NCBI GenBank assembly: GCA_007753915.1
Contig: CP036352.1
Location: 1 to 64,000 of the forward strand
DNA: 64,000 bases
Source of the DNA: Phycisphaerae bacterium RAS2
GTDB lineage: Bacteria; Planctomycetota; Phycisphaerae; UBA1845; UTPLA1
Direction of reading: 5' to 3'
Part shown: positions 48,046-61,938 of the stretch, in pieces
Layout of the letters: each line of letters begins with the position of its first letter
How positions within the stretch are numbered: the first letter of the stretch is position 1
The notes under the pieces: generated by a model
The model's input: the letters and a program-made list of their open reading frames with translations, nothing else
What the model was told of the DNA's origin: nothing
Databases searched by the model: none
Made by a program: the position numbers and the translations under genes

Positions 48046-48474
48046 TTAGCGCACTGCCTCAACAAGAATCCGCAAGGCTCGGGTAGCTCGCTTTCCACCG
48101 GGACGGGTCATGAGGCCGAACCACCAAGCTGCTTCGGTTCCGTCAGATTGCCGGAGATTTTCGGCGGCCGTATGAAGGCGCTGCGAATTACGAAGTCCCA
48201 TCGCGACCAGTGCATAGCAAGCCACACGGGCACCCCAGTCCATGTCGAGCGGGTGGAATGGTCCGCTGGTGAGCTTCGCACCATTGCCGCCCGTCGCACG
48301 CACTGCGCCACGGAGAAGCGCGGCGGCCGATGAGTAGGCGAGAGGCGAGATGGACGCAACGCGCGCGAGGCGCTCATCCTGATGGCCGTTCAAGGTGCGG
48401 CGATACAAAATGGCTGCATCGCCGGCACGTCGGCGCACGACTCGTATGGCGAAAGCGGCCTGGCGAACCTTCAC
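48046..48474 (-). CDS. Small conserved-looking partner of the DUF499 ATPase
   Basis: 142 residues, not recognised. Basic N-terminus, Ala/Leu/Arg-rich, predicted helical, with WGARVACYALVAMGLRN and EAAWWFGLMTR segments. No signal peptide. The GTG start overlaps the DUF499 gene stop (GTGA), so production is tied to that ATPase. Its place corresponds to the small proteins (for example DUF3780) seen in similar clusters, but I see no DUF3780 match. Confidence 0.65.
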   Translation of the reverse strand: MKVRQAAFAIRVVRRRAGDAAILYRRTLNGHQDERLARVASISPLAYSSAAALLRGAVRATGGNGAKLTSGPFHPLDMDWGARVACYALVAMGLRNSQRLHTAAENLRQSDGTEAAWWFGLMTRPGGKRATRALRILVEAVR

Positions 48475-51419
48475 TTCGTACCTCCAGCCGGCTTGTCAAA
48501 TGTCGCCTTCACCGCGATTCCGTCGGGAGCAGAGCCCTGCGTTTGCTGTAGCTGAGAGAGCATTCCGGTCCGTCCGGCTGCACCAAAGGTCAGTTTGAAT
48601 TCGACTTCATAGGAGCCGCCCTCGACCAGCGAATTGAAAATCGTTTGTGCGATTCCAAGCGGTTTGGTCGGATGGTTCAGTTTTACGTTGCTCGCGGCGA
48701 AATTCATGTCGCCGCCGTCCTTGAGCATTCCGCTGGCTGAGACCGACACCGACAGTTGCTCGGCGCTGATCGGTTGCACGAGGTTGGGGAGCATGGCCGC
48801 GTCGCCGGGCGTCTTGGCGATGAGGCGCAGTTCCAAGAGCGGCCGTTCGTTAGCGTACTCCAGCACCTTCTCCCAACTTGTAGCTGTAACCCGTCCGGGT
48901 GTGACGGGCGGAGGTGGTGGCGTGGGATCGCCGCCGCCAGTCCCTCCAGTGCCGCCGGTCCCTCCGCCTCCTCCTGGTGGAGTCGGCGCGTCTTCTTTTA
49001 GCCATGCGTTGGCGGCAGTCGAACCGGCCGCCGCAACTCGAACGGAATCGTCGAGCGGAAACGTCGTCAATGAATCGGCCACACGACGACGGCGACCTTC
49101 GGCGCCCTCGACGCGGCCTTTTGCGTCGTACGCGCGGCCATCATCGAACCGAATCACGATCTTGCCGTCAGTAAGCGCACGAAGGACGGTCTGACGTACA
49201 ATGCTTCCGTCTGGAATCAGTCGCAAACCCGGTGCACCCAGAAACCGCTCGTGAATCGCCTTGGCCGTGAACACATCCGGCTGGTCAACGATTGGAACGG
49301 CCCCGGGCAAAACGTCACGGATGAATCGACCAACGTCAAGCGCGTCGTTTGGCTCGTAAATGAGCTTGTTGCCGTCGAGGAACTTCCGCACGCAGGTTTG
49401 TCCCTGCGGCTTTTGCAGGATCTGCTCATCCGGCACCTGATATTTCTCGTCGAGAGCCTTGACGGCTCCACCGGGCAGAACGATGCGGTCAAAGGCGCGC
49501 CGCGTTTGAAGGCCGAATTGCTTAACGAGTTCGGGACTGATCTTCTTGAGCTGCTCGCGAACCATTTTGCCGGAGTCGCCCTTGTTCTCCTTCTCTATCG
49601 CTTCAGCGGCCATAAGGCGCTGAGCGCGACGAATCGCTTCGTTGAGTGCGGTCGGCGTCGCGGTCACAGCGAAGATCGCGTTTTGAAATCCGCGAGGCAT
49701 CGGCGCTGCCGGGTCGCTGTCATCGCCATAGGCCACGACGGCCTTGGCGATCCGTTCGTCTGCGCAAAGTGCAAGCTGCAACGCGGCCGATTCGGGCACC
49801 TGGCGTGCGGACGTCGGCCAAGCGGCAACCTTGAACGTCATGCCTTGGAAGTAGCCTTGAGCCTCCGCGAGCACGCGACTGCGTGCGTCCTCCATCGGAA
49901 TGTCAGCAACGCGTTCCTCGATCTGTTTGAGGACGTTGGGCTCGAATCGGAACTGGCAGCCGCGTCCCGAAATTGTCGGGTAGGTGTGCCAGCAAACTCC
50001 CATCAGGCGGTCCATCGCCTCGGCTGGTTCGGGACCCGCTTCGTCGGGGCGCAAGGTCACGAGGGCGAGGTCGGCCGGCTCCAGGCCGCTGTTGGGGGTC
50101 AACGGAATGCTCTCAAGCATGATGGCCGAAGCGACGCGTCGATGTACGCCGCGTGTGGCGCCGCCATCGAGTTCCCCGCCATGCTTGTCGATGTCAGCAG
50201 ATATTGCGGCCTTGAATTCGTTTCGGTTTAGACGATTGAGGAGATCAGCCTGGATTCGAGAGCTTGCCCAGTCAATCTCGCCGGCGGTGATCAACTCAAC
50301 ATCATCCTTGGCGTCCCATACGTCACGGATGATTCGGGCGAAAAGGCGAAGAACGCCGCGGCTCTTCTGAAAGTCCTGCATGGCGCCGAGCCGGTCCGTT
50401 GCCGTATCGAGCAATCGCGGATGAAACGGATAACAATCGACGATGCGTTTCGCGTACGGCCCGCTCGCGGATTCTGCGGGCAGCGATCCGGCGGCATCCT
50501 TGCAAACTCGCTCGTACAGACTGTGATAGGTTGCGGAAGAAGCTTGTGCGGCACCGTTGTTCACCGACTCGAATAAGCGGCGGACGATGACGCGCGCCGA
50601 TTCGTCGCCTATCGGATCAAAATCGCTGACCTTGCGACCGAAGATGTCGTCGAGCTTTGCTGCGGCGGATTGGAGCGTCGCTCCGAGCTGGTTGCTTTGC
50701 GTCGCGTACGCGGCCTGAGCTCCGGGGTCGGTGATAATGAGCACCGTCTGTGGCCGCTTGCTCACTACCGACATCAAAGAATTCAAGAAGCCCAGGAGAT
50801 TCCCTTGGCCGCGTTCCGAGAGCTTCGCCATGTAAACGACGAGTTCGTCGAGCAAGATCAGGACCGGGCCATTGGGAAACACCGACTCGATCTGTCCCTC
50901 GCTCGGAGATGCCTCAGGGTCGTCGGCTTTGCCCAGGAGCCTCAGCCCTTTCTCCTCGTCGAGTCGGTAGAAGATCTCGCCCCAAAGGCTGTGGACCTTC
51001 GTCTTGCCGTGCGAGGCGAACTCCGGAAATCCGGCCTTGCTGGCATCGACCGCAGCCGCTTTTAGGGCCGATGGTCGGCCGGCCGCAGGCAGGAGGTCGG
51101 TGCCGAGAGCCGGGTCATCGATTCCGTTAGCGAGGTGCCACAACGCCATCAGCGTGTGGGTTTTGCCGCCGCCGAAAGCGGTGCTGAGGCGAATCGTCGT
51201 GCCACCCTCTTTCGCCGCCGATAGTCGGCCGAAGACCGCTTGGACGACTTGGCACAAGTGCTTCGCAGGATGCGTGTTTTGAAAGAAGGCCCGTGGATCG
51301 CGATAGACCTTGGGGGCCTTTTCCGCGATGAGATCGCCGAAATCTGCGGCGAATATCGCGTCGTCTAAATCGCCCTTGAGAACTTCCACGCGAGGTTTAC
51401 AGCCGCTAAGAACGCCCAT
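48471..51419 (-). CDS. DUF499 anti-phage-associated AAA ATPase
   Basis: 982 residues. Walker A is STAFGGGKTHTLMALWHLA (about 80-98) and Walker B VLILLDELVVYMAK (about 195-208). DUF499 proteins include the BREX-type PglY/BrxC ATPases. Near residue 820 a run of Pro and Gly (PTPPGGGGGTGGTGGTGGG) links the ATPase to a C-terminal beta domain. It is the first gene of the minus-strand defence block. ATG 51419 is preferred to a TTG two codons upstream. Confidence 0.87.
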   Translation of the reverse strand: MGVLSGCKPRVEVLKGDLDDAIFAADFGDLIAEKAPKVYRDPRAFFQNTHPAKHLCQVVQAVFGRLSAAKEGGTTIRLSTAFGGGKTHTLMALWHLANGIDDPALGTDLLPAAGRPSALKAAAVDASKAGFPEFASHGKTKVHSLWGEIFYRLDEEKGLRLLGKADDPEASPSEGQIESVFPNGPVLILLDELVVYMAKLSERGQGNLLGFLNSLMSVVSKRPQTVLIITDPGAQAAYATQSNQLGATLQSAAAKLDDIFGRKVSDFDPIGDESARVIVRRLFESVNNGAAQASSATYHSLYERVCKDAAGSLPAESASGPYAKRIVDCYPFHPRLLDTATDRLGAMQDFQKSRGVLRLFARIIRDVWDAKDDVELITAGEIDWASSRIQADLLNRLNRNEFKAAISADIDKHGGELDGGATRGVHRRVASAIMLESIPLTPNSGLEPADLALVTLRPDEAGPEPAEAMDRLMGVCWHTYPTISGRGCQFRFEPNVLKQIEERVADIPMEDARSRVLAEAQGYFQGMTFKVAAWPTSARQVPESAALQLALCADERIAKAVVAYGDDSDPAAPMPRGFQNAIFAVTATPTALNEAIRRAQRLMAAEAIEKENKGDSGKMVREQLKKISPELVKQFGLQTRRAFDRIVLPGGAVKALDEKYQVPDEQILQKPQGQTCVRKFLDGNKLIYEPNDALDVGRFIRDVLPGAVPIVDQPDVFTAKAIHERFLGAPGLRLIPDGSIVRQTVLRALTDGKIVIRFDDGRAYDAKGRVEGAEGRRRRVADSLTTFPLDDSVRVAAAGSTAANAWLKEDAPTPPGGGGGTGGTGGTGGGDPTPPPPPVTPGRVTATSWEKVLEYANERPLLELRLIAKTPGDAAMLPNLVQPISAEQLSVSVSASGMLKDGGDMNFAASNVKLNHPTKPLGIAQTIFNSLVEGGSYEVEFKLTFGAAGRTGMLSQLQQTQGSAPDGIAVKATFDKPAGGTK

Positions 51420-51561
51420 CGTCAAGCACCTACAAAAAGCCCGCTACTATCGTGGCGACAAGCGCTAGCAAAAAAAGGGTCTAGCGATCGCAATCGGCCA
51501 TTATAAACGGGATCAGGCTGCAGACCACCATGATACGACAAAGAAGGACATCCAGGCCATC

Positions 51562-52200
51562 TTAATATGAAGGGCGGTCCTCGCCGCGATGCAGAAGCTC
51601 ATGCGCCAGTTCGTGCGCGATTACCGCGAATTCCTCGGCGGCGGGCAGGCCCGGCCGGATGCTGATGCGACCGCCGCGAGACAGGCCAAGGGCGCTGCCT
51701 GCACCGATCTCGTAGTCGAGCGCGATACCGCGCGAAGCGACGACCGTCTTGATGCAGTCAAGGTGCTGGCCGGGATCGCCGTTGATACCGGCCGGCTCGG
51801 GCAGCGGCTGGCCGTCGGTCTGCGACACGTCGAAGACGTACACGCCGCGGAAGCGCAGCACGGTCTCGTCGCGCTCGGCGGATTCGCCGGCGGCAGGCCC
51901 GGCGTCGCGCCCGCCACGGCGGCTCTCCGACTTGCGGAAGACCATCGGCGCGATGATGGCGATGCCCTTCTCGCCCTGGCGGACGTACCGGCCCATCTGC
52001 TTCCAGGTGTTGAAGCCGGCGACGTGCGTCGCGTCGGGCTTCTGCGACAGGATCAGCATGACGTTCCCGAAGCTGTACTTGTGGAACTTCGCCAGCATCG
52101 ACAGATAGCGGGTGAGTTCCTCGCTCCTGCCTGCGGCGAGCGCCTGGCTGAGTTGTTCGAGGGCCTGGTCGGCGACTTTCTTGGCTTGTTCGGCTTTCAT
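51562..52200 (-). pseudogene. ArdC-like antirestriction protein, probably truncated at the 3' end
   Basis: 212 residues. The N-terminal ArdC-type ssDNA-binding domain (LAKFHKYSFGNVMLILSQKP, FNTWKQMGRYVRQGEKGI) is followed by an M78-like protease motif IAHELAHELLH. In the family another 60 or more residues follow, with a second metal-binding Glu; here the frame ends nine residues after the motif (GEDRPSY). The break lies near the edge of the defence island. A strong AAGGAG precedes ATG 52200. ArdC genes protect incoming plasmid or ICE DNA. Confidence 0.72.
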
Positions 52201-52521
52201 GATTCTGCTCCTTTTCTTGGGGACTGCGAGTGGTCCCTTCACCCCGGCTGAGGGACCCGAGCGGTCCAGAAAAGGAGCGAGCGGCGACAAGGCCGGCAGG
52301 CCGCCGGAGAGTCCCGCGAAGCGGAGCAGGACGAACGCCGGACCGAATCCGAAGGATGCGAAACGGGTCCGGCGTGAGGCGTGCAAGACTCGAAGGCGAG
52401 AAGCGAAGCGGTGCCGGCCGGACGCCGCGTTTGAAAGCCGGGCAAGCGGGGTTAGAGATCGCCGCAAGTAGAGCCGAGCGAGATGGCGAACGCCCAATGC
52501 TTCGAAGTCAGTTGAAGGCGG
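52201..52521. other. Gene-free GC-rich stretch upstream of the ArdC-like gene
   Basis: 321 bp. The ribosome site of the ArdC-like gene lies at its left end. The open frames here lack any recognisable protein sense. No terminator or repeat is seen. Confidence 0.35.
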
Positions 52522-53115
52522 TCATTCAGGCTGCATCGGCTTGAAGTCGATTGATGGCGAAGGGGGCCTGTCGGGTATTTGCACGCGAAGGAACGGCTTC
52601 TCGGCCGCCTGGTGGCAGGAATGGCAGACGATGATGGTATCCCGGTAGGCCGCCACAGCGCGGTCCTTCTCCTTACGGGCGATGGCCGACTCAAATGCGG
52701 CGAACTGTGTGTTGTCGAGCGCTTCGGCGATGCCCCGGATGTTCAACTCTTCGCCCGTGCTTAGCATCCGAACCGGCATCGCCTCCACGGCTTGCTCCAT
52801 GCTCTCGCGACACTCGTGCAGATAGAAGTCCGCGAGCGGCCAGTTTTCATGGTCAATCGCAAACCATAGATTGCCAAAGTGGTAAGCGACCCCGCTCATG
52901 AGCGTTCCTTGCCCCGGCGACAGCGCTTCGAGGTGCTTGATCCGGACTTCCAGTTCGGCGTTGCCCTGAGCTTGCGATGTGCCGTTCGTCCGTGTCCATC
53001 GGCCTGTTCGTGATTGCTGCGACGAGTCTGCCCCGTGGCAGCAGCCAAGCCACAAGAATGCCAAGGCCATTGCACCGCACGACAGCCGGAAGCCGTGTTC
53101 CGAATTTGTTGTCAT
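52522..53115 (-). CDS. Secreted cytochrome-c-like protein (CxxCH)
   Basis: 197 residues. The N-terminal hydrophobic segment ends in LWLGCC at about residue 26, a lipoprotein-like export signal. A helical middle part (HFGNLWFAIDHENWPLADFY) and a C-terminal CHSCH motif at 164-168 suggest one covalent heme. It resembles small cytochrome-c-like proteins without a known partner. The start at 53115 is preferred because GGAG lies six bases upstream. It is the last gene of the minus-strand group with DoxX and the AhpD-like protein. Confidence 0.65.
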   Translation of the reverse strand: MTTNSEHGFRLSCGAMALAFLWLGCCHGADSSQQSRTGRWTRTNGTSQAQGNAELEVRIKHLEALSPGQGTLMSGVAYHFGNLWFAIDHENWPLADFYLHECRESMEQAVEAMPVRMLSTGEELNIRGIAEALDNTQFAAFESAIARKEKDRAVAAYRDTIIVCHSCHQAAEKPFLRVQIPDRPPSPSIDFKPMQPE

Positions 53116-53180
53116 CGTCGTCTCCATTTCGATTGGTCCCAGCAACCGCCAGATTCCGTGCGGATGACCACGTTCCGAAA

Positions 53181-53681
53181 CTACCCCTTTGTTTGCGCTG
53201 GGGCGGCGCGAGATCGCTGAATCACTGCGTCAACGGACCACCTGCCGGCGCCGACGATCAACAGAAACACACTGCCGAGCAACATGGCCCAGTCGGTGCG
53301 CGACTCATGCGCCATCGCCCAGAATCCGTACTCAGGCAGTTTGCGGACATGGAAGCCCCACAGGTCGTGCCCGGCGAGGATCGGCAGCTTCGTGGTGACG
53401 ATGGCTGTCGCCATATCGATGATCAGCGGGATGGCCGCTGCGCGCGTCAGCAAACCGGGAATCAGGAAAGCGCCGCACGTCAACTCGAAGAACGCAACAA
53501 AGTATGCGATGTTGGGCTGAGCAAAACCCATCTTGTCGAACCTGCCGGGACCAAGCTCGCCCGGAAACAAGAACTTCTGCAATCCCTCGGAGATAAACAC
53601 AAGGCCGACCATGAGACGAATGAGGATTACGCTTCTCGAAGCGGTCGCATCAAAGACGAGGTTTCTCAACGGTGTTCGCAT
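53181..53681 (-). CDS. DoxX-family membrane protein
   Basis: 166 residues with four membrane helices. The opening helix ILIRLMVGLVFISEGLQKFLFP is the DoxX hallmark, followed by FFELTCGAFLIPGLLTR. DoxX-type proteins work with redox or thiol enzymes in oxidative-stress membranes, though the chemistry is poorly known. The gene follows the AhpD-like gene by 24 bp, so they are probably co-transcribed. Confidence 0.85.
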   Translation of the reverse strand: MRTPLRNLVFDATASRSVILIRLMVGLVFISEGLQKFLFPGELGPGRFDKMGFAQPNIAYFVAFFELTCGAFLIPGLLTRAAAIPLIIDMATAIVTTKLPILAGHDLWGFHVRKLPEYGFWAMAHESRTDWAMLLGSVFLLIVGAGRWSVDAVIQRSRAAPAQTKG

Positions 53682-53705
53682 GGGTTTCTCCGATCGGCCT
53701 AGCCG

Positions 53706-54263
53706 TCACGCGCGCCGCTTGTGCCTCATCTCCGGTTCAGGTTCCACGCCGAGCGCGTCCATGACCCGGTTCGCGTAGTTGAAATAGGAAATCGCGTGGA
53801 CCGCATCGACGATGGTTTCGTCATCGAAGCCGGCATTCCGCAGCGAAGCGATGTCGTCGCTGCGCATCTCCAGGGGATGCAGCGACAGCTTGACGGCGAA
53901 ATCAAGCAGGGTCTTCGTCGGCGCGTCGAGGGCCGCCGTGCGGTAGTCGGTCTGGATCAAAGCAATCCGCCCGTCATCGCGGACCTCGGCACGGAGGTCC
54001 GATTCGTGTGCCTCCATTCAGTAAAGGCAGCCGTTGACCTTGGAGACCACGGTGGCGATAAGCACCCTTTGAAGCCGGGTCAGCCCGCCGGGTCCGTCCA
54101 TGACCTGACGATACATCTGCCGTCCGATGGCCATGCTCTCGGGGCGCAGACTTTGCACTTTGACCAGGTTGATCACCTTGCCGCACCTGGCCCGCGTCTC
54201 GTCATAGATCTTCGCGAGCAACCCGGTGGCCTGCTCTTGCGTAATCGTCGAAACCCAACTCAT
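53706..54263 (-). CDS. AhpD-like peroxidase-related selenoprotein (in-frame UGA at the CxxC motif)
   Basis: 185 codons in one frame with an internal TGA at 54018-54020 (codon 82). Both sides match one protein of the AhpD/carboxymuconolactone decarboxylase-like peroxidase-related family: GLTRLQRVLIATVVSKVNGC before, MEAHESDLRAEV and FDDETIVDAVHAISYFNYAN after. The family active site is C-x-x-C-x-x-x-H; here it reads NGCLY-(TGA)-MEAH, so the TGA takes the place of the second Cys. A stem-loop 16 bases after the TGA fits a bacterial SECIS. AhpD-like selenoproteins with CxxU are known. A plain nonsense mutation is the alternative. AAGGAG precedes the ATG. Automatic callers would split it in two. 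Confidence 0.8.
53980..54001 (-). promoter_or_regulatory. SECIS-like hairpin for selenocysteine insertion
   Basis: On the mRNA: CGGACCTC-CGTGCC-GAGGTCCG, an 8-bp perfect stem with a 6-base loop that has G at its second position. The loop begins 24 bases after the UGA. This fits the usual bacterial rule (loop about 16-37 bases after UGA, G in the first two loop bases). Confidence 0.68.
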
Positions 54264-54356
54264 GGTTCGTGCTCCTTCTGCATTTGAATGTGGCTGATTT
54301 CAATCTCATGGCTTGCGAATCTCCCCTGAGATTTCCGCAACCAGTTGCCTGGCCCC

Positions 54357-54773
54357 TTACCTATGTCGTCGCCTCGTCTTCGAGCGTTGATCGAGATTAT
54401 CATTCCGGCCAATCGCCATAGCACCCTTCGCGCGCTTGGCGCTGCCAAATACGCGGTGTAACTCAGATTCGAATAGCTCTCGAAACAGCTCCTTGACCTT
54501 CTCCTTGGCCTCCACCAGGGTCCGGCGTCCGTTCGGTGTGATCGCATAGACGCGACGCGCGCTCTGGCCGGCGGGTTCCTTCTTCGAACGCAGCAGGCCG
54601 CGTTTTTCGAGCCGGTGAAGCATGGGGTACAGCGTGCCCGCGCTCAGCTGGTATCCGTGCCGGGCCAGTTCCTCGATGATCCACAGCCCGTAGATCGGTT
54701 TCTCGCCCGCGTGGTGCAGGATGTGAAGGGGGATGAGTCCCGCGAAGAGTTCCTGATCGAGTCGCAATCTCAT
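54357..54773 (-). CDS. PadR-family transcriptional regulator
   Basis: 138 residues. The winged-helix domain is typical PadR: LHILHHAGEKPIYGLWIIEE, the recognition part LSAGTLYPMLHRLEKRGLL and the wing RRVYAITPNGRRTL. The C-terminal helix allows dimerisation. It lies upstream of the AhpD-like, DoxX and cytochrome-like genes on the same strand and is divergent from chrA, with a symmetric operator candidate in between. It probably represses itself and chrA in response to an unknown stress signal. Confidence 0.88.
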   Translation of the reverse strand: MRLRLDQELFAGLIPLHILHHAGEKPIYGLWIIEELARHGYQLSAGTLYPMLHRLEKRGLLRSKKEPAGQSARRVYAITPNGRRTLVEAKEKVKELFRELFESELHRVFGSAKRAKGAMAIGRNDNLDQRSKTRRRHR

Positions 54774-54792
54774 TGCCGTCGCTCTCGCTAAA

Positions 54793-54813
54793 CGATATCG
54801 TGTTCCGATATCG
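54793..54813. promoter_or_regulatory. PadR operator candidate
   Basis: CGATATCG (54793-54800), five bases, CGATATCG (54806-54813): two identical palindromes in the 65-bp gap between padR and chrA. Position and symmetry suggest the regulator's own site controlling both directions. Confidence 0.62.
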
Positions 54814-54838
54814 ACAACGGATAATAGGTGACTTGCCG

Positions 54839-56020
54839 ATGAACGTCAACAGCGCGAATACGATGAGACTACGACAAGAGAACCTGCGGGAACTGGCGGC
54901 CGTATTCCTCAAGCTCGGGGCCACCGCCTTCGGCGGGCCGGCAGCTCACATCGCCATGATGGAGGACGAGGTCGTCACCCGCCGTGCTTGGATGACGCGC
55001 GAGGAGTTTCTTGACCTGCTCAGCGCGACGAACCTCATCCCCGGACCGAATTCGACGGAAATGGCGATTCACATCGGCCATCGGCGGGCCGGGTTCCTTG
55101 GGCTGCTTGTGGCCGGCGCGAGTTTCATTCTACCGGCGGTACTCCTCGTTACGCTGATCGCGTGGGCCTACGTGCGTTTCGGCACGTTGCCGCAAGTATC
55201 AGCATTCCTTTACGCCATGAAGCCCGTCATCCTGGTTATCGTGTTGCAAGCCTTGTGGCGGCTGGCGCACAGCGCGTTGAAGGACCGGACATGCGTGGCC
55301 GTCGCGGTGGTTGCAACGACGTGCGGGCTGGCAGGAATCAACGAGCTTCTGATACTTGCCCTTGCGGGCCTGTTCATCCCGCTCGCGCGGAATGTCTTTC
55401 CATCCCGCTTGCCGCCGGCGACGCCGTGCCTGTTGCTCGCTACCTCAACGACCGCACCGGCATCCGCCGCTGTAGCGCTTGGCGCGGCGACACCTTTCGG
55501 TCTCTGGCCTCTATTCCTATTTTTCATCAAGGTGGGATCGGTCTTGTTCGGGAGCGGATATGTCCTGCTCGCTTTTATTCGCGCCGATCTGGTCGAGCAT
55601 TTGGGGTGGCTGTCCGAGTCGCAATTACTGGACGCGATCGCCGTCGGCCAAGTCACGCCGGGACCGGTGTTCACGACCGCGACGTTCATCGGTTACATGC
55701 TGGGCGGGTTGCCGGGCGCGGCCGTTGCGACCGTCGGAATTTTCCTGCCCGCCTTCTTCTTCGTGGCGGTCAGCGGGCCGTTGCTGCCGCGACTACGCCG
55801 CTCAAGGTTCGCCTCGGCGGCGCTGGATGGCGTCAATGTCGGCTCTGTGGCCTTGATTGCGGCGGTGATTTGGCAACTTGGAAACGTAGCCCTCTGCGAT
55901 GCGCAGACTGTCTTGATCGCGGTCGTCTCCGCCTGCCTGCTTTGGCGGTTTGCACTGAATTCTGCCTGGCTGGTCGTCGGCGCAGGCTTTCTAGGCACCG
56001 CGGTCAGCCTGGTGCGCTGA
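54839..56020 (+). CDS. chrA: Chromate transporter ChrA, two-domain form
   Basis: 393 residues, about ten membrane helices. Each half has a CHR motif: FGGPAAHIAMMEDEVVTRRA with NLIPGPNSTEMAIHIG in the first, and FGSGYVLLAFIRADLVEHLG with VGQVTPGPVFTTATFIGY in the second. ChrA proteins pump chromate out of the cell. ATG 54839 has AGGTG eight bases upstream; ATG 54863 is possible. Control by the divergent PadR-type regulator is likely. Confidence 0.92.
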   Translation: MNVNSANTMRLRQENLRELAAVFLKLGATAFGGPAAHIAMMEDEVVTRRAWMTREEFLDLLSATNLIPGPNSTEMAIHIGHRRAGFLGLLVAGASFILPAVLLVTLIAWAYVRFGTLPQVSAFLYAMKPVILVIVLQALWRLAHSALKDRTCVAVAVVATTCGLAGINELLILALAGLFIPLARNVFPSRLPPATPCLLLATSTTAPASAAVALGAATPFGLWPLFLFFIKVGSVLFGSGYVLLAFIRADLVEHLGWLSESQLLDAIAVGQVTPGPVFTTATFIGYMLGGLPGAAVATVGIFLPAFFFVAVSGPLLPRLRRSRFASAALDGVNVGSVALIAAVIWQLGNVALCDAQTVLIAVVSACLLWRFALNSAWLVVGAGFLGTAVSLVR

Positions 56021-56052
56021 CCAAGACGAAACCGGTCAGCCGATCTGCGTAA

Positions 56053-56709
56053 TCATCGCGCCGGGGTCGGCCCCGCAGGCCCGGCACCATGCCGCGAATT
56101 CCACCGGGTCGATGTGGCGGCCGCCGATCGTGGACCCGAGGACGGATTTGGCTCGGCCAAATATTCAACCGAGCTTCGGCGGATCCGGGCCGTGACGGGT
56201 TCTTCAGCGTCGAGGCGGCGGGCAGCAGTGCGTTCGGGGGCGGCGTCGATGGTGTGGGCGGTCTTGAGGGCCTTGATTTGGTCGGCCAGTTCGGCGGTCG
56301 AAAGCTGAGCTTCGGTAGTGGGATCGGGTGATTCGTCGCTGCTTGAATTTGACGGCATGCCGGCGAGGCTTGTCTTGAGCTGGTCGCGCAGTTGCGTCAG
56401 TTCGCCGTGGAAGGCTTCGTGCGTGAACGGCTTGCCGATGCGGGGCTGGTAGTCGCGGAGTTGCGATTCGGCGATGGAAAAGTCCTGCTTCACACCGGCG
56501 ATCTCGTTGCCGTAGGCGTGGCACAGCCGTTCCAGCGCGTTGAATACGGCGCGCGGGCCGTGGCTGCCGCGGAGCAGCCGGTCGTAGCGGGTCGTCGCGC
56601 CCTCAAGATACGCATCAGGCGGGAAGTCCCGGTGCAGCACGAGGCCGAAGCACAGTCCCCGATAGACGCCGAGCGAAACGCGCTGCTCCTGCCGCAGGTC
56701 GCGCGGCAT
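56053..56709 (-). pseudogene. C-terminal fragment of a plasmid/ICE helicase-methylase protein
   Basis: 218 residues beginning MPRDLRQEQRVSLGVYRGL. In my recollection this is the tail of very long helicase/DNA-methylase proteins found beside ArdC-like genes on plasmids and integrative elements. The catalytic domains that should precede it are missing: the sequence upstream of 56709 has no continuing match. It is therefore a remnant, broken near 56.71 kb where the next block begins. The ArdC-like remnant at 51562-52200 is on the same strand. Confidence 0.5.
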
Positions 56710-56835: not shown

Positions 56836-59800
56836 TCACCCCCTCGCCCGAATCTGCGCCAACAAATTCACATCCTTGATCTCCCGATCGCGCGAGAGGA
56901 GCAGCACTTTGCTCATCACTTCCGCCGTCTTGGGGTCGTCATCGGCGAACGGGAGGAACAGTCGGCCGCGGTGTTGGCCGTGGACCGGGACGATGACGAG
57001 TTCGCCGCCGGGGATCAGGTGCGTCGTGGCGCTGCCGAGATGCACGGTGTATTCGCCGAGCTCACCATGGATGACGGCGAATGTCTCTTTCAGTGTCACA
57101 TTATCCAACTGCAACAGCGTCAGCGTTTCGCGCAAGAGCGACCGCCGCATATCGACTGTGCCGGCCGATGCCTCCGGGTCCACGCCGCCTCGATGGGCCA
57201 CGCTCACCATGAGGTCCACATCCCGAAACGTCTCGCTCAACAATCGCGGTGGCAGCGCCTCCAACCGCAGCGGCTCGTATTCACTGCGCCGCGCGAAGCG
57301 CACACGCTCCATCGTCAGGCCTTCAATATCCGCCGGCGTGTGGAACGCCTCCATGAACTCGATCCAAGCGACGATCTTGTCTTCGTGGAACAATCGAAAA
57401 ACGCCGGCGTCCGGTGCGACAACCCAGCCACGCGAGCCGAGCAGGGCCACAGCCTGCCGCGGATTGACTTGATGCCCGGCATATCGCGCCGAGAATGTCC
57501 CGTCCTTCCTCTCCTGCTCGGTCAGGACGTACAACTCGCGGAAGATTTGTTTGAACGGCTGCACGCGCTCGGCCGCAAAGCAATCTCGCTGCCACTGGCT
57601 CCACTGCTTCGTTGCCAACAGATCGACCGGGTGCGCCATGCGCAATGCGTCGTTCTTGCGAATCGGCTCGATCTTCCCGGTACAGTCGCGCAGGCCCTGC
57701 CCGCCATCGACGGGATAGCCGATCAACCCATCACCGACAAACACGAGTCGCTCCAACAGCGGCCGAAGCATCACGTTGCCCATCAGATCGCGAAGCTCTT
57801 CGCCGGTGAATCGATCGCCGCGACACATGGAAAGCTCAAGTGCCTGTCGCATGCGACTGGCGGAACGCCGAAGGTCCGTCTTGCGTTCGGTCAGTTCCTG
57901 AACCGCAGGCGACTTTTTCACGGCCGGCGGAATGCTCTTGAGCGGTTTGTCTCCGCGTCGCGATGAAATCTCCGGCAGGCCGTCGTCGCCGATGGCCAAT
58001 TGCACGACGACATCGCCGACTTGTGCTGTGACCGGGCCCTTCGCCAGGTCAGCCGTCGCGAGCCCCTCCATCGCCCATTGCAGGCGAGTCGCATCCGGGT
58101 ATCCGGCGGTTCGGGCAAGATTATCCAGGCCGATACGAGCGGCGAGTTTCTCCGAGGCCTGCCGCTGCGAGCCAAACTTTCGACACCCACGGACGAACTC
58201 TTGCATGACGCGATATCGCGCGAGCACTTCCTCCTTGGATGACTGGGCAAGCGGCAGCAGGCCGAGCGCGCGGACGGCGTCCTGCTTGCGCCTCGACTCA
58301 ATGTCCTTGATGAGCGTCTCGCGCTTCACCTGGCCGAGCATCGCGTCGGCGAAGAGCTGGGCGCGCTTATGCCCCGCGCCGCCGGTGGCGTACTTGGCCA
58401 GTTCGTCCAGCTTGTTCCATCGGGCGCTGCCCAGCGCTTGGTAAACACGACTGAACCACTCCACGTCCACCGCGCCGTCAACGAGGTCTTCCAGCGTCAG
58501 CGGCGTGAGCTTGCGAATCTCGGCGTTCCACGCGTTGCGAATTTCCTCATCCACGCGCCATTTGTTGTCCTTCGTGTGGGCGTGAATCCACCAGATCGCC
58601 TCATTCAGCGATTCCCACTTCACGGCTCCCTGAACGTGCCGCGCCCAGTGCGGGGCGAACATTCCGGCGGCGAGAAGCATTTCCTCGCCGATGCTTGCAG
58701 CATTCATCGCCTCGGCGAATCGCTGCGGCGTGTCGTCCTTACCCGGCGAGGTGACCGTGATCAGGTGGCTGAAGCTTGCCGATTTGCTCAAACCCGCGTC
58801 GCCCCAGGCGCGCGTGCGCCGGAGTTTTGAATCGCGGCCGATGGCCTGAAGGACGCGAACGAGAACATCGACCCCGCCGGCATATTCGAGGTGGGTCGCC
58901 GGCTGCGTGGCCGGCGTCTCGCTGTCGCCACGCTCCAGTTCGATGTCGAGCACGCGGTCGATGGCACGCTGCACGACGGTCGCGAGCGCCGGCGAGAGTG
59001 TGTGCTTGCGCAATGCAAGAGACGCTCGCGAGAATTCTCGGAAGGACAATGTCTGGTAGAAATTTTCCTTCTCGCGCGGTCCCAACAGACTATCGAAGAC
59101 ATCATGCTCGTTGGCATAGCCGCCGTCGAACGCCGCGGCCATGTCGTCCCATTTGACGCGCTGGCGCGGGAGATGAGTCGAAGCCTGATTCCCCGTGAGC
59201 CGCGCCGCGAGCGAACGTGCAGACTGTTTGAGTCGGGCGATGCCGGTTGGGCTTGGCAGCGATACCGAAAGCGGTTCATCGACCCAACGAAGTAACCCGA
59301 ACAAGCGGCGGCCATGCTGGACTTGCCAGTGCTTCTTGTATGTCGCAACTCTTTTCGTATCGACTATCAAAATGTCGCAGTCCGAGACCAGATAACGGAG
59401 TTCGGGCTTGCCGAATTCGTCTGTTTCCGCGACCCTCTCCCGCGGGATCGCCGCCAGGATTGTCTCGAAGGCATCGACGATGAAGTCGGCGATATCGACG
59501 TTCGACTCGAACGTAACAAGCCACTGCAGCACGGATAGAGCAACTGCGGGGTACTTCAGCTTTGTTCCGGAGCGGATGACCTGGCGAACCGCTTCCGCCC
59601 AAAGACCCTTGCGCGCAATCCAGCGCCGCTCGGATTCAAAGTGCGAAATGAGAATAGCGCGGACTACCTCCATGCCGTCCGCATCGCGCGCCGCTTTGGG
59701 CCTATCTGCCCACACCTTTTTCCAAATTTCCCAAAGTGGGATGTCTTGGAGCTCTCTGATCAGGTGTTGCCGATTGCCGTGGTCCCAGGTGAACCCGTCT

Positions 59801-61938
59801 CCGAGGCCGAATTCGATTGCTCCCAAAGGCTTTAGGTCTGTGTCGGGTGCGCCTTCGTACCGCTTCACCGGTGTATCTCGGTATTCGTGGACCGTGTCGT
59901 CAATCAGTTTCGCCAGCGCCGCGGCAGCGGGCGTCACGAGTTGGACCGCGCGTTTTTGGGGCGGCGTTGGTGGCGTGCGTTTCGCGGGGTCCATCAGGCC
60001 GAGGGCGTTGGCGAGCGTTTGCGGCGCGGCATCGGTCAATACGAGCTTCTCGATAACGGCCCGCTCGTCGGAATCCAGGACCGAGCTGTCTTTGAGCGCG
60101 GTCCGCGCGACGCGGCGCGTTGCGTCGGTCGCGCGCTGGTCCTTGATCATCTGTTGCATCAGGTCCAGGCCGGCCCTCCGCTGTGGTTTCTGATTCGCCC
60201 AGATCAACCGGCAGGCGCTGGCCAATGCATCGTCGTTGCTCAACGTCAGCAGCAATTTGATCACGGCCCGGCGGAGGTCTTCTGACTTTCGCGTGAGCAA
60301 TTCTTCAAGGATCGAGGCGTCATCCGGCTTGAGCGTTTGCTTGGTGAGCGCCGATATGGCCGCCTCACGCACCGATGTAGATGCGTCGCCCACCATGCGC
60401 AGCAAGATTTCGCGAAATTCCCCCTTCATCGCGCCGGGGCGTTGCAATAACTCGGCGGCGTAACATCGCCCATTCGGCGACATGAATTGAAAGTAGGGCA
60501 CGATTCGATTGAGCGGTCGGTCGGCAAGCGCAGGCAGCAAGGCATCCGCAACACTTTGACGCTCAAGGGTGTCGCTCGACCAAGGCCAAACCAGCGGCTT
60601 CACGCGGATGGTCGGCTTGGGGAACCGCTTGAGCAGGCGTTCCAATCGCTCAAACAAGTCTCCCGCCTCGACGGAGGACTTGCTAAGTCCCGAAAAGTTC
60701 ACTTTGAGCCAATTCGGGAGTGCCGATTCGAACGACTCGATGAGCGTATTGTTGATCTCCTGCTCTCGAATGCGACGATGGAGTTCGCTGTGCGCAGCAT
60801 ACGCTGCAAGGCAGGCAACGCGCTCATCGGTGTCGTCCACTGCCGGCACGACGACATCGTATGTGTCGGGAATCCCAAGGGCCGTGAGCGCGGCTGCTGC
60901 GGCGTAGCGCATCTCCACGGATCGATGCTTGAGCAGCTTGGCAGCAGCCGGGATAGCCGACTGTGCATCTTCAAACGCCAAGCACCACAGCGCAAGGAAT
61001 GCCTCCGAACCGTCACTGCCCGCGAGCGCTTTCGTCCGAACCGCCTCGTCGTTCAGCATCACAGCGACCTTCTCCAGCGTGTCGCTTGTATACCGGGCGC
61101 TTTGAGCATCGAGCATGAACCCGAGCCAGACGTCGGCCGCGCGCACGGTCGCGCTGAACCGGACCAGATTGTTGTCCAAGATGACGCGGAGCATGTGGCG
61201 AAATGCGCCGGGGTGGGCAATGTCAACCGCTTCCAGGATCTGCTGCCGCACGCCTTCCTGTCGCTGCGCCGCGAGCAGCAGCTTTTCGATGTACTCCCAG
61301 CATTCGCGGTCCGAGCTGCACAAGAACGCCGTAATGACGTGCCGGCCCATCTGGCCGATTTCGTGCTGCCCCTCGGCGCTGTCGCGGAGCGTCTTCTTGA
61401 TTTCGTCCGCCTGCGGACCGCCCTCATCTATCCCGGCAGCCAGCAGCAGGCCGATCTGGCTGCCGTTGTAGGCGAACTCCAGATGCGGTGCGTAGGCCGC
61501 AAGCTGTAGCAGGTCTAGGTCCAGCGATTCCAGGCTATGAAGCAGATAAACCAGGAATTCAACGCGAGCTTCTTTTAAGAGGTCTTCACGACCGGGAGCA
61601 CGAAATGGCTTTCGCGTCGGGCCGGACAGGTACGGCAACCGATCGTGCAGGTTCCACGCGGCTCGGAACGCCTTGGCCAGCTTCGGAAACAGCGCGTCCC
61701 CCAGTTGCAGGAGTACTTTGTCGTCGTATCGCACCAGGAAATGTTTGGCGGTGTTCTGCGTTCGCCAGACATCGGTCGTCTTCCCCGGCTCGGGATCCTT
61801 TGCGAGATCCACGAGCTTTTGCCCGACCTGTTTCACGACGCGCGGCAGGCCGCGCATCGCCTTCTCGCGAACGGCGACCCACGTCTTTGTGTCGTACTGC
61901 GACTCCAGCCTCTTGACTATCTCATCCGGGCTAAGCAT
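56836..61938 (-). CDS. Giant HEAT-repeat protein with DUF5724/DUF4132-like end
   Basis: 1700 residues. The first 700 residues are HEAT/ARM-like helical repeats (RYAAAAALTALGIPDTYDVV, STSVREAAISALTKQ). The remaining part resembles DUF5724 and the MolR/DUF4132 domain (GLGDGFTWDHG; PVDLLATKQWSQWQRDCF; VFRLFHEDKIVAWIEF). The ending GELVIVPVHGQHRGRLFLPF with DPKTAEVMSKVLLL is typical of DUF4132. Function unknown; a defence role is possible from location only. The preceding gene ends two bases upstream, so they form an operon. Confidence 0.68.
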   Translation of the reverse strand: MLSPDEIVKRLESQYDTKTWVAVREKAMRGLPRVVKQVGQKLVDLAKDPEPGKTTDVWRTQNTAKHFLVRYDDKVLLQLGDALFPKLAKAFRAAWNLHDRLPYLSGPTRKPFRAPGREDLLKEARVEFLVYLLHSLESLDLDLLQLAAYAPHLEFAYNGSQIGLLLAAGIDEGGPQADEIKKTLRDSAEGQHEIGQMGRHVITAFLCSSDRECWEYIEKLLLAAQRQEGVRQQILEAVDIAHPGAFRHMLRVILDNNLVRFSATVRAADVWLGFMLDAQSARYTSDTLEKVAVMLNDEAVRTKALAGSDGSEAFLALWCLAFEDAQSAIPAAAKLLKHRSVEMRYAAAAALTALGIPDTYDVVVPAVDDTDERVACLAAYAAHSELHRRIREQEINNTLIESFESALPNWLKVNFSGLSKSSVEAGDLFERLERLLKRFPKPTIRVKPLVWPWSSDTLERQSVADALLPALADRPLNRIVPYFQFMSPNGRCYAAELLQRPGAMKGEFREILLRMVGDASTSVREAAISALTKQTLKPDDASILEELLTRKSEDLRRAVIKLLLTLSNDDALASACRLIWANQKPQRRAGLDLMQQMIKDQRATDATRRVARTALKDSSVLDSDERAVIEKLVLTDAAPQTLANALGLMDPAKRTPPTPPQKRAVQLVTPAAAALAKLIDDTVHEYRDTPVKRYEGAPDTDLKPLGAIEFGLGDGFTWDHGNRQHLIRELQDIPLWEIWKKVWADRPKAARDADGMEVVRAILISHFESERRWIARKGLWAEAVRQVIRSGTKLKYPAVALSVLQWLVTFESNVDIADFIVDAFETILAAIPRERVAETDEFGKPELRYLVSDCDILIVDTKRVATYKKHWQVQHGRRLFGLLRWVDEPLSVSLPSPTGIARLKQSARSLAARLTGNQASTHLPRQRVKWDDMAAAFDGGYANEHDVFDSLLGPREKENFYQTLSFREFSRASLALRKHTLSPALATVVQRAIDRVLDIELERGDSETPATQPATHLEYAGGVDVLVRVLQAIGRDSKLRRTRAWGDAGLSKSASFSHLITVTSPGKDDTPQRFAEAMNAASIGEEMLLAAGMFAPHWARHVQGAVKWESLNEAIWWIHAHTKDNKWRVDEEIRNAWNAEIRKLTPLTLEDLVDGAVDVEWFSRVYQALGSARWNKLDELAKYATGGAGHKRAQLFADAMLGQVKRETLIKDIESRRKQDAVRALGLLPLAQSSKEEVLARYRVMQEFVRGCRKFGSQRQASEKLAARIGLDNLARTAGYPDATRLQWAMEGLATADLAKGPVTAQVGDVVVQLAIGDDGLPEISSRRGDKPLKSIPPAVKKSPAVQELTERKTDLRRSASRMRQALELSMCRGDRFTGEELRDLMGNVMLRPLLERLVFVGDGLIGYPVDGGQGLRDCTGKIEPIRKNDALRMAHPVDLLATKQWSQWQRDCFAAERVQPFKQIFRELYVLTEQERKDGTFSARYAGHQVNPRQAVALLGSRGWVVAPDAGVFRLFHEDKIVAWIEFMEAFHTPADIEGLTMERVRFARRSEYEPLRLEALPPRLLSETFRDVDLMVSVAHRGGVDPEASAGTVDMRRSLLRETLTLLQLDNVTLKETFAVIHGELGEYTVHLGSATTHLIPGGELVIVPVHGQHRGRLFLPFADDDPKTAEVMSKVLLLSRDREIKDVNLLAQIRARG

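Follow-up and report, generated by a model that had tools for sequence, protein, structure and literature searches.

Does the frame on the minus strand between positions 53706 and 54263 of the window (the whole 64-kb stretch of DNA analysed here) hold two short genes, or a single enzyme whose active site contains a selenocysteine (Sec) encoded by UGA? The initial annotation had proposed a selenoprotein from a frame of 185 codons whose sole interruption is a TGA at 54018-54020; these coordinates are correct, and the strand, which it had not given, is minus. The gene starts with ATG at 54263 and ends with TGA at 53708-53706, giving 185 residues when the inner UGA is decoded. As had been anticipated, gene calling with table 11 splits the same frame into open reading frames of 81 (54018-54263) and 103 amino acids (53706-54017). 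Ordinary gene calling cuts the enzyme in two, and many of the searched Planctomycetota genomes contain TGA-bearing homologues. Three features are central to the question:

53706 to 54263, minus strand: predicted gene for an AhpD-like selenoprotein, 185 codons followed by a TGA stop, with C79-L-Y-U82, H86 and Val67.
54018 to 54020, minus strand: UGA codon 82, the putative selenocysteine codon and the only inner stop in the frame.
53980 to 54001, minus strand: predicted bSECIS hairpin, with an 8-bp stem (54001-53994 with 53987-53980) and the loop CGUGCC (53993-53988), based on fold and covariation.

The read-through protein exceeds the cut-off of the NCBIfam family TIGR01926, named 'peroxidase-related enzyme' (150.6 versus 81.8 bits, residues 2-178), and contains a CMD domain (40 over 23). 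Profiles of other AhpD-type proteins and selenoproteins remain below their cut-offs, including TIGR00777 for AhpD of the Mycobacterium tuberculosis type (28.6 versus 191.95), NF041238 or AhpD_rel_CFYUT (57.4 versus 175) and NF053654 or GroundWater_YciW (26.8 versus 310), and the arsenite methyltransferase/AhpD family NF041537 is missing from the eight families that match the read-through protein at 0.001. An AlphaFold2 model, computed from the window protein and 28 relatives with Cys in place of Sec, has a mean pLDDT of 92.2 and a pTM of 0.86, and the top Foldseek matches are AhpD-type crystal structures, led by 6k40 (E 1.3e-11, TM 0.82). The likeness to the peroxidase-related structures 6k40, 2oyo, 2pfx, 3c1l and 2prr is one of full-length homology (26-34% identity, TM ~0.8), whereas 6k40, 2oyo and 2pfx, in three alignments, have Cys where the window protein has Sec and Glu where it has Val. 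With AhpD of M. tuberculosis and with PA0269, the window protein shares the all-helical AhpD fold, the Cys-x-x-Cys/Sec motif and a His four residues further on, and the equivalent of Cys133 of M. tuberculosis AhpD is Sec. The motif around the UGA reads C79-L-Y-U82-x3-H86, in which C79, Y81, U82 and H86 align with homologues containing Cys, and the UGA does lie at the second active-site Cys, as first suggested. No AhpC-type family was found among the eight neighbour genes scanned.

The claim that AhpD-like CxxU selenoproteins are established in other bacteria agrees with the accessible parts of the literature. PMC1088965 described such proteins as new, PMC1794560 and PMC2398784 counted them again, and a 2026 review (PMC13188914) catalogues them as TIGR01926 CxxU selenoproteins, with MCB9421940.1 as an example (PMC13188914, PMC9312934). 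Since the review lists TIGR01926 CxxU proteins, our core finding belongs to a known selenoprotein family, which the window protein resembles both in exceeding the family cut-off (TIGR01926/COG2128) and in the position of CxxU. The accessible parts of the open-access literature searched, including the main text of PMC4807772, mention no AhpD-like selenoprotein in Planctomycetes.

The UGA is shared by most of the homologues compared. From 128 profile hits aligned from fetched loci, five without a residue at the Sec column and all duplicates were set aside, leaving 118 distinct stretches in which the Sec codon is TGA in 107, TGC in six, TGT in three, and TTG and CTC in one each. The comparison of homologues at this codon, which had been recommended at the outset, therefore sets 107 UGA rows beside 11 non-UGA rows (nine Cys, two Leu); the proportion of 107/118 is no frequency estimate, since the set was not random and combines best hits, hand-chosen TGA rows, all eight TGA-free rows listed in a phylum search and only three of many weaker TGA-free relatives. 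That phylum search covered 392 genomes, 167 of which have a match at 1e-20, and among the matches listed, which leave off the weakest, all but eight carry TGA. Purifying selection acts on both sides of the codon. Between the window gene and a 93% homologue, dN/dS is ~0.08 before the UGA and ~0.17 after it, the latter being a rough value from 10 synonymous and 6 non-synonymous changes, and dN is lower than dS on either side of the UGA in all eight pairs tested, with one upstream dS saturated.

Two further loci illustrate the range of states at this codon. In one genome (L094, G171:C155), two AhpD-like genes stand in tandem, one with UGA and the other with TTG (Leu), a one-base difference at the Sec codon. 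A contig of the Nitrospira sp. CR1.3 MAG (L053) carries a 65% homologue with UGA, which is counted in our totals; no SelB over the cut-off was found in this MAG, so the contig may be mis-binned or the gene stranded, and we draw no conclusion on Nitrospirota.

The hairpin downstream of the UGA folds with -14.3 kcal/mol. An 8-bp hairpin with a G-containing loop had been described 24 bases downstream of the UGA; the hairpin itself stands, while the distance of 24 nt fits the apical loop, the stem beginning at 16 nt. Published limits for bSECIS elements are a stem of 4-16 bp, a loop of 3-9 nt, a G at loop position 1 or 2, a UGA-to-loop distance of 16-37 nt and an MFE of at most -7.5 (PMC13188914, section 5). 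The hairpin lies within all of them (8-bp stem, 6-nt loop with G as its second base, a distance of 24 nt, -14.3), as judged by comparing the fold with these limits. The 26-nt hairpin is more stable than shuffled versions (z = -3.7, 0/200 as good), but a 46-nt stretch including the UGA gives z = -0.9 with 30/200 shuffles as good, so that folding energy alone is weak evidence. An Rfam scan of the 64-kb window returned 16S rRNA only.

Stronger evidence for the hairpin comes from its codons. Counting codons from the UGA, D-L-[RQ]-x-E occupies positions 7-11 in 73 of 107 UGA rows and in none of the 11 non-UGA rows. In these 73 rows, Leu at codon 8 is written CTC in 72, whereas CTC makes up 36% of the Leu codons in the rest of these genes, and codon 11 is GAG in all 73, compared with 70% of Glu codons elsewhere. 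Pairing survives in 422 of the 438 stem pairs of these rows, while 1000 synonymous resamples retain 329 +/- 7 and never more than 351. Where Asp7, Glu11 and Val/Ile12 are all present (60 rows), the wobble base of the Asp7 codon (C/T) and the opening base of codon 12 (G/A) form 43 C-G, 14 U-A, 2 U-G and 1 C-A combinations, which makes 57/60 Watson-Crick pairs (Fisher p = 1e-10, without correction for kinship). In a tree of 59 rows, both sides change on seven branches, codon 7 alone on three and codon 12 alone on one, and both stem sides have changed in seven of eight path-disjoint pairs. The constraint on synonymous sites and the compensatory changes indicate, by sequence comparison, that the hairpin is selected at the RNA level, and covariation of this kind between the two stem strands is sequence-based support for a selenoprotein. 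Not all UGA rows share the hairpin: five or six of the six tested stem pairs are kept in 80/107 UGA rows and fewer than five in 27/107, which may use other hairpins, and one of the 11 non-UGA rows keeps five pairs. Within the 4.3-Mb genome, the pattern TGA-18N-GAYCTCCGKNNNGAGRTC has exactly two matches, one in the window gene and one in an AhpD-like paralogue at C1:402,945, and a control with the reversed pattern gave 0 matches. This paralogue (C1:402702-403373; L012 6703-7371) has CFYU with UGA and the same SECIS motif, keeps the Glu, and has ~43 additional residues separating the SECIS from the C-terminal part.

The machinery for Sec insertion is encoded in the genome, a single contig of 4.32 Mb. 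The search for selA, selB, selC and selD that had been advised finds all four: a tRNA-Sec (71 bits, anticodon tca, UCA), SelB (297.8 bits, cut-off 242.25), a predicted selA that overlaps the end of selB and is assigned from its own sequence, and SelD (372 bits), which itself contains one in-frame TGA in the motif CAGUAGK (C1:2633461-2634384, L055). Among 101 genomes (this one and 100 relatives), SelB is found at 1e-60 in 88. A TGA-containing match (E at most ~1e-12) is present in 49 of the 101, this genome included, the position of the TGA having been checked in the fetched stretches; SelB is detected at 1e-60 in 46 of them, and the three others are 75-81% complete. Because tallying tRNA-Sec by family E-value is unspecific, ringing in 14/14 control genomes, we counted by the score gap between 61 and 52 bits; at least 60 bits is reached in only 40 of the 49, under these stricter filters and in mostly draft assemblies.

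Taken together, the Sec machinery, the agreement with SECIS limits, the compensatory changes and the UGA in 107/118 homologous stretches support the selenoprotein interpretation of the initial annotation, and we consider the gene, with a probability of about 0.93, to encode a functional CxxU selenoprotein of the AhpD-like/peroxidase-related family. If the UGA were instead a real stop and the two halves relics of a decaying pseudogene, the two short frames under table 11 would be explained, and relatives do show some decay, as had been named at the outset as a warning sign. In G001, a genome of the same genus, one homologue is interrupted near residue 139 (56% identity over residues 1-138, 76% over 141-182) and a second is a remnant with extra stops (61% identity to the window gene), and a few other relatives have a second stop, among them four TGA-bearing matches of those listed in the phylum search. 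The sign does not extend to the closest copies (93%, in genomes G013 and G015), which have no other stop, and we do not take the G001 copies for the window gene because of their identities of 56% and 61% and the lack of shared neighbours (none of five window neighbour genes was found beside them), while selB of G001 is 80% identical. Decay is also hard to reconcile with the same UGA in so many stretches, with a dN lower than dS both before and after it and with a stem selected at synonymous sites, and we regard it as very improbable.

A changed code that assigns UGA to Trp or some other standard residue, or read-through without selenium, would leave the frame open. However, the gene's own terminal stop is TGA, nine of the 11 non-UGA rows have Cys at the Sec column, and tRNA-Sec, SelA, SelB and SelD are encoded alongside a bSECIS after the UGA; this explanation is about as improbable as decay. 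Even less credible is a sequencing or assembly error in a TGC or TGT Cys codon, for which one base would suffice, as the same codon recurs in assemblies of many genera and is followed by the SECIS motif. We reject all three of these alternatives.

For the selenoprotein, we propose that SelB and Sec-tRNA would bind the hairpin loop, leading to insertion of Sec at codon 82. Sec82 would then attack a peroxide or disulfide substrate, an activity suggested by that of relatives, Cys79 would resolve the selenenylated intermediate, and a thiol donor would regenerate the enzyme, in keeping with the general scheme of Sec attack, Cys resolution and thiol regeneration. The selenol of Sec has a pKa near 5.2.

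The window protein departs from AhpD in its proton relay. According to the accessible part of PMC3141380, the relay in AhpD consists of Glu118-Cys130-His132-Cys133-His137; PA0269 has Tyr instead of His132, and one relative has His instead of Glu. The corresponding columns of the window protein are Val67-C79-Y81-U82-H86, with a spacing of 12 as from Glu118 to Cys130; the five-residue relay of the AhpD type is not complete, Val67 standing in the column of Glu118 (Glu36 in PA0269). Among the 107 distinct UGA rows, this column holds Glu in 92, Val in 14 and Tyr in one, and all 11 non-UGA rows keep Glu (in L093, one of the nine Cys rows, Thr replaces the first Cys). The 15 Val/Tyr rows, all with UGA, form one clade among Glu-keeping Sec rows with support of 100/100, in a midpoint-rooted tree whose bootstrap was unsettled; they include two damaged G001 copies and L053 of the doubtful Nitrospira bin. 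Cys79, Tyr81, Sec82 and His86 are present in every clade row.

Judged from these sequences, the loss of Glu looks like one event, confined to Sec proteins among the rows compared. As a single event, it is no proof that Sec allowed the loss; the non-UGA rows are too scarce for 15/107 versus 0/11 to reveal a difference, and since 92 of the 107 UGA rows have Glu, Sec alone does not lead to its loss. Conceivably, the relay Glu is dispensable in the clade, the selenol being ionised at neutral pH. If the loss is dependent on Sec, the clade would constitute a natural experiment on what selenium gives an enzyme.

The surroundings of the gene comprise the following features:

53181 to 53681, minus strand: DoxX-family membrane protein, next downstream after a 24-base gap, with the order kept in G013 and G015.
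52522 to 53145, minus strand: small protein containing a heme-c-like motif, CHSCH, and encoded third in the likely transcript.
54357 to 54773, minus strand: PadR-like regulator, directly upstream of the AhpD-like gene.
54773 to 56020, plus strand: ChrA-type chromate transporter, divergent.
51572 to 56708, no strand: probable laterally moved block of ~5.1 kb that shares 89.2% DNA identity with genomes from a different genus and has an ArdC-like gene at its left end.

The DoxX gene is likely to share one transcript with the AhpD-like gene, and the CHSCH protein has no match in Pfam at 0.001. The block matches from 51572 to 56708 in G015 and from 51574 to 56708 in G013, where the contig ends; both genomes belong to another genus of the same family. 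Given that the block is 89.2% identical yet the window SelB is only 57-60% identical to those of G013 and G015 (80% to that of same-genus G001), lateral transfer is the simplest reading. At the right end of the block, a 218-aa frame corresponds to the end of a 1461-aa frame in G015, and at the left end lies the ArdC-like anti-restriction gene, as if the block had been cut from a larger mobile element. The flanks hold a DUF499 gene (48471-51425), which scores 156 bits with an NCBIfam anti-phage-associated family whose cut-off is 1200, and a DUF5724/DUF4132 protein of 1700 aa (56836-61938). The DoxX, PadR and ChrA neighbours occur beside the G013 and G015 copies only and at no other locus searched (most with 1.5 kb per side), and these operon partners are therefore not general. 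Viral contigs scanned for relatives gave none; 452 plasmid records have homologues, all below 60% identity, and the 15 matches listed are Agrobacterium 'peroxidase-related enzyme' proteins.

Metal-related genes are frequent around the clade. With 13 metal-related query proteins, metal-transport or YHS genes were found near 9/14 clade loci, leaving out a second counting of the G013/G015 block, versus 1/16 control loci that keep Glu, where the single match is weaker and AcrB-like; the queried families have no match at the other 5/14 clade loci. The 113 neighbour frames of the 14 clade loci include YHS (6), E1-E2 ATPase (3), AcrB-type transporters (2), ArsP permease (2) and HMA (2) among the best 25 of 86 families, and the best 25 of 125 families in 121 frames of the 16 control loci are LysM, YkuD, acyl-CoA dehydrogenase and others without a metal-transport name. 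Since the 13 queries came from clade loci, two loci are from G001 and several share neighbours, the metal context is a lead rather than a test. The mobile, metal-linked setting suggests a physiological role for the AhpD-like selenoprotein, and the clade might have been co-opted into metal- or metalloid-stress islands that move between planctomycetes.

It is possible, though we think it unlikely, that the selenoprotein serves to bind or transfer a metal or metalloid rather than to reduce peroxides or disulfides. The neighbours at 9/14 loci and the lost relay Glu point this way, as do, in the accessible part of PMC13188914, a list in which most transporter-type predicted selenoproteins are implicated in metal/metalloid resistance and a catalogued arsenite methyltransferase/AhpD-domain selenoprotein. 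On the other hand, Cys79, Tyr81, Sec82 and His86 are kept throughout the clade, the fold is that of AhpD, and the adjacent metal genes vary by locus and, among those searched, are lacking at 5/14. We tentatively suggest a scenario that has a modest chance of being correct, in which a Sec-only AhpD clade lost the relay Glu once, a selenol having no need of a general base, and was later carried from one planctomycete to another on islands of metal resistance, where it would act as an enzyme of metal stress that depends on Sec; the DL[RQ]xE stretch would be conserved for RNA rather than for protein.

Compared with the TIGR01926 CxxU selenoproteins listed in the accessible part of the review, the clade differs in having Val or Tyr for Glu and frequent metal-related neighbours, neither of which is mentioned there. 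In the open-access literature searched, as far as its text was accessible, neither a Glu loss nor a metal link turned up for AhpD-like TIGR01926 selenoproteins, and the clade's Glu loss and mobile metal-linked setting appear to be features without a counterpart in it. At one G001 locus (L161), the interrupted AhpD-like selenoprotein gene is flanked on both sides by ArsP-like permease genes.
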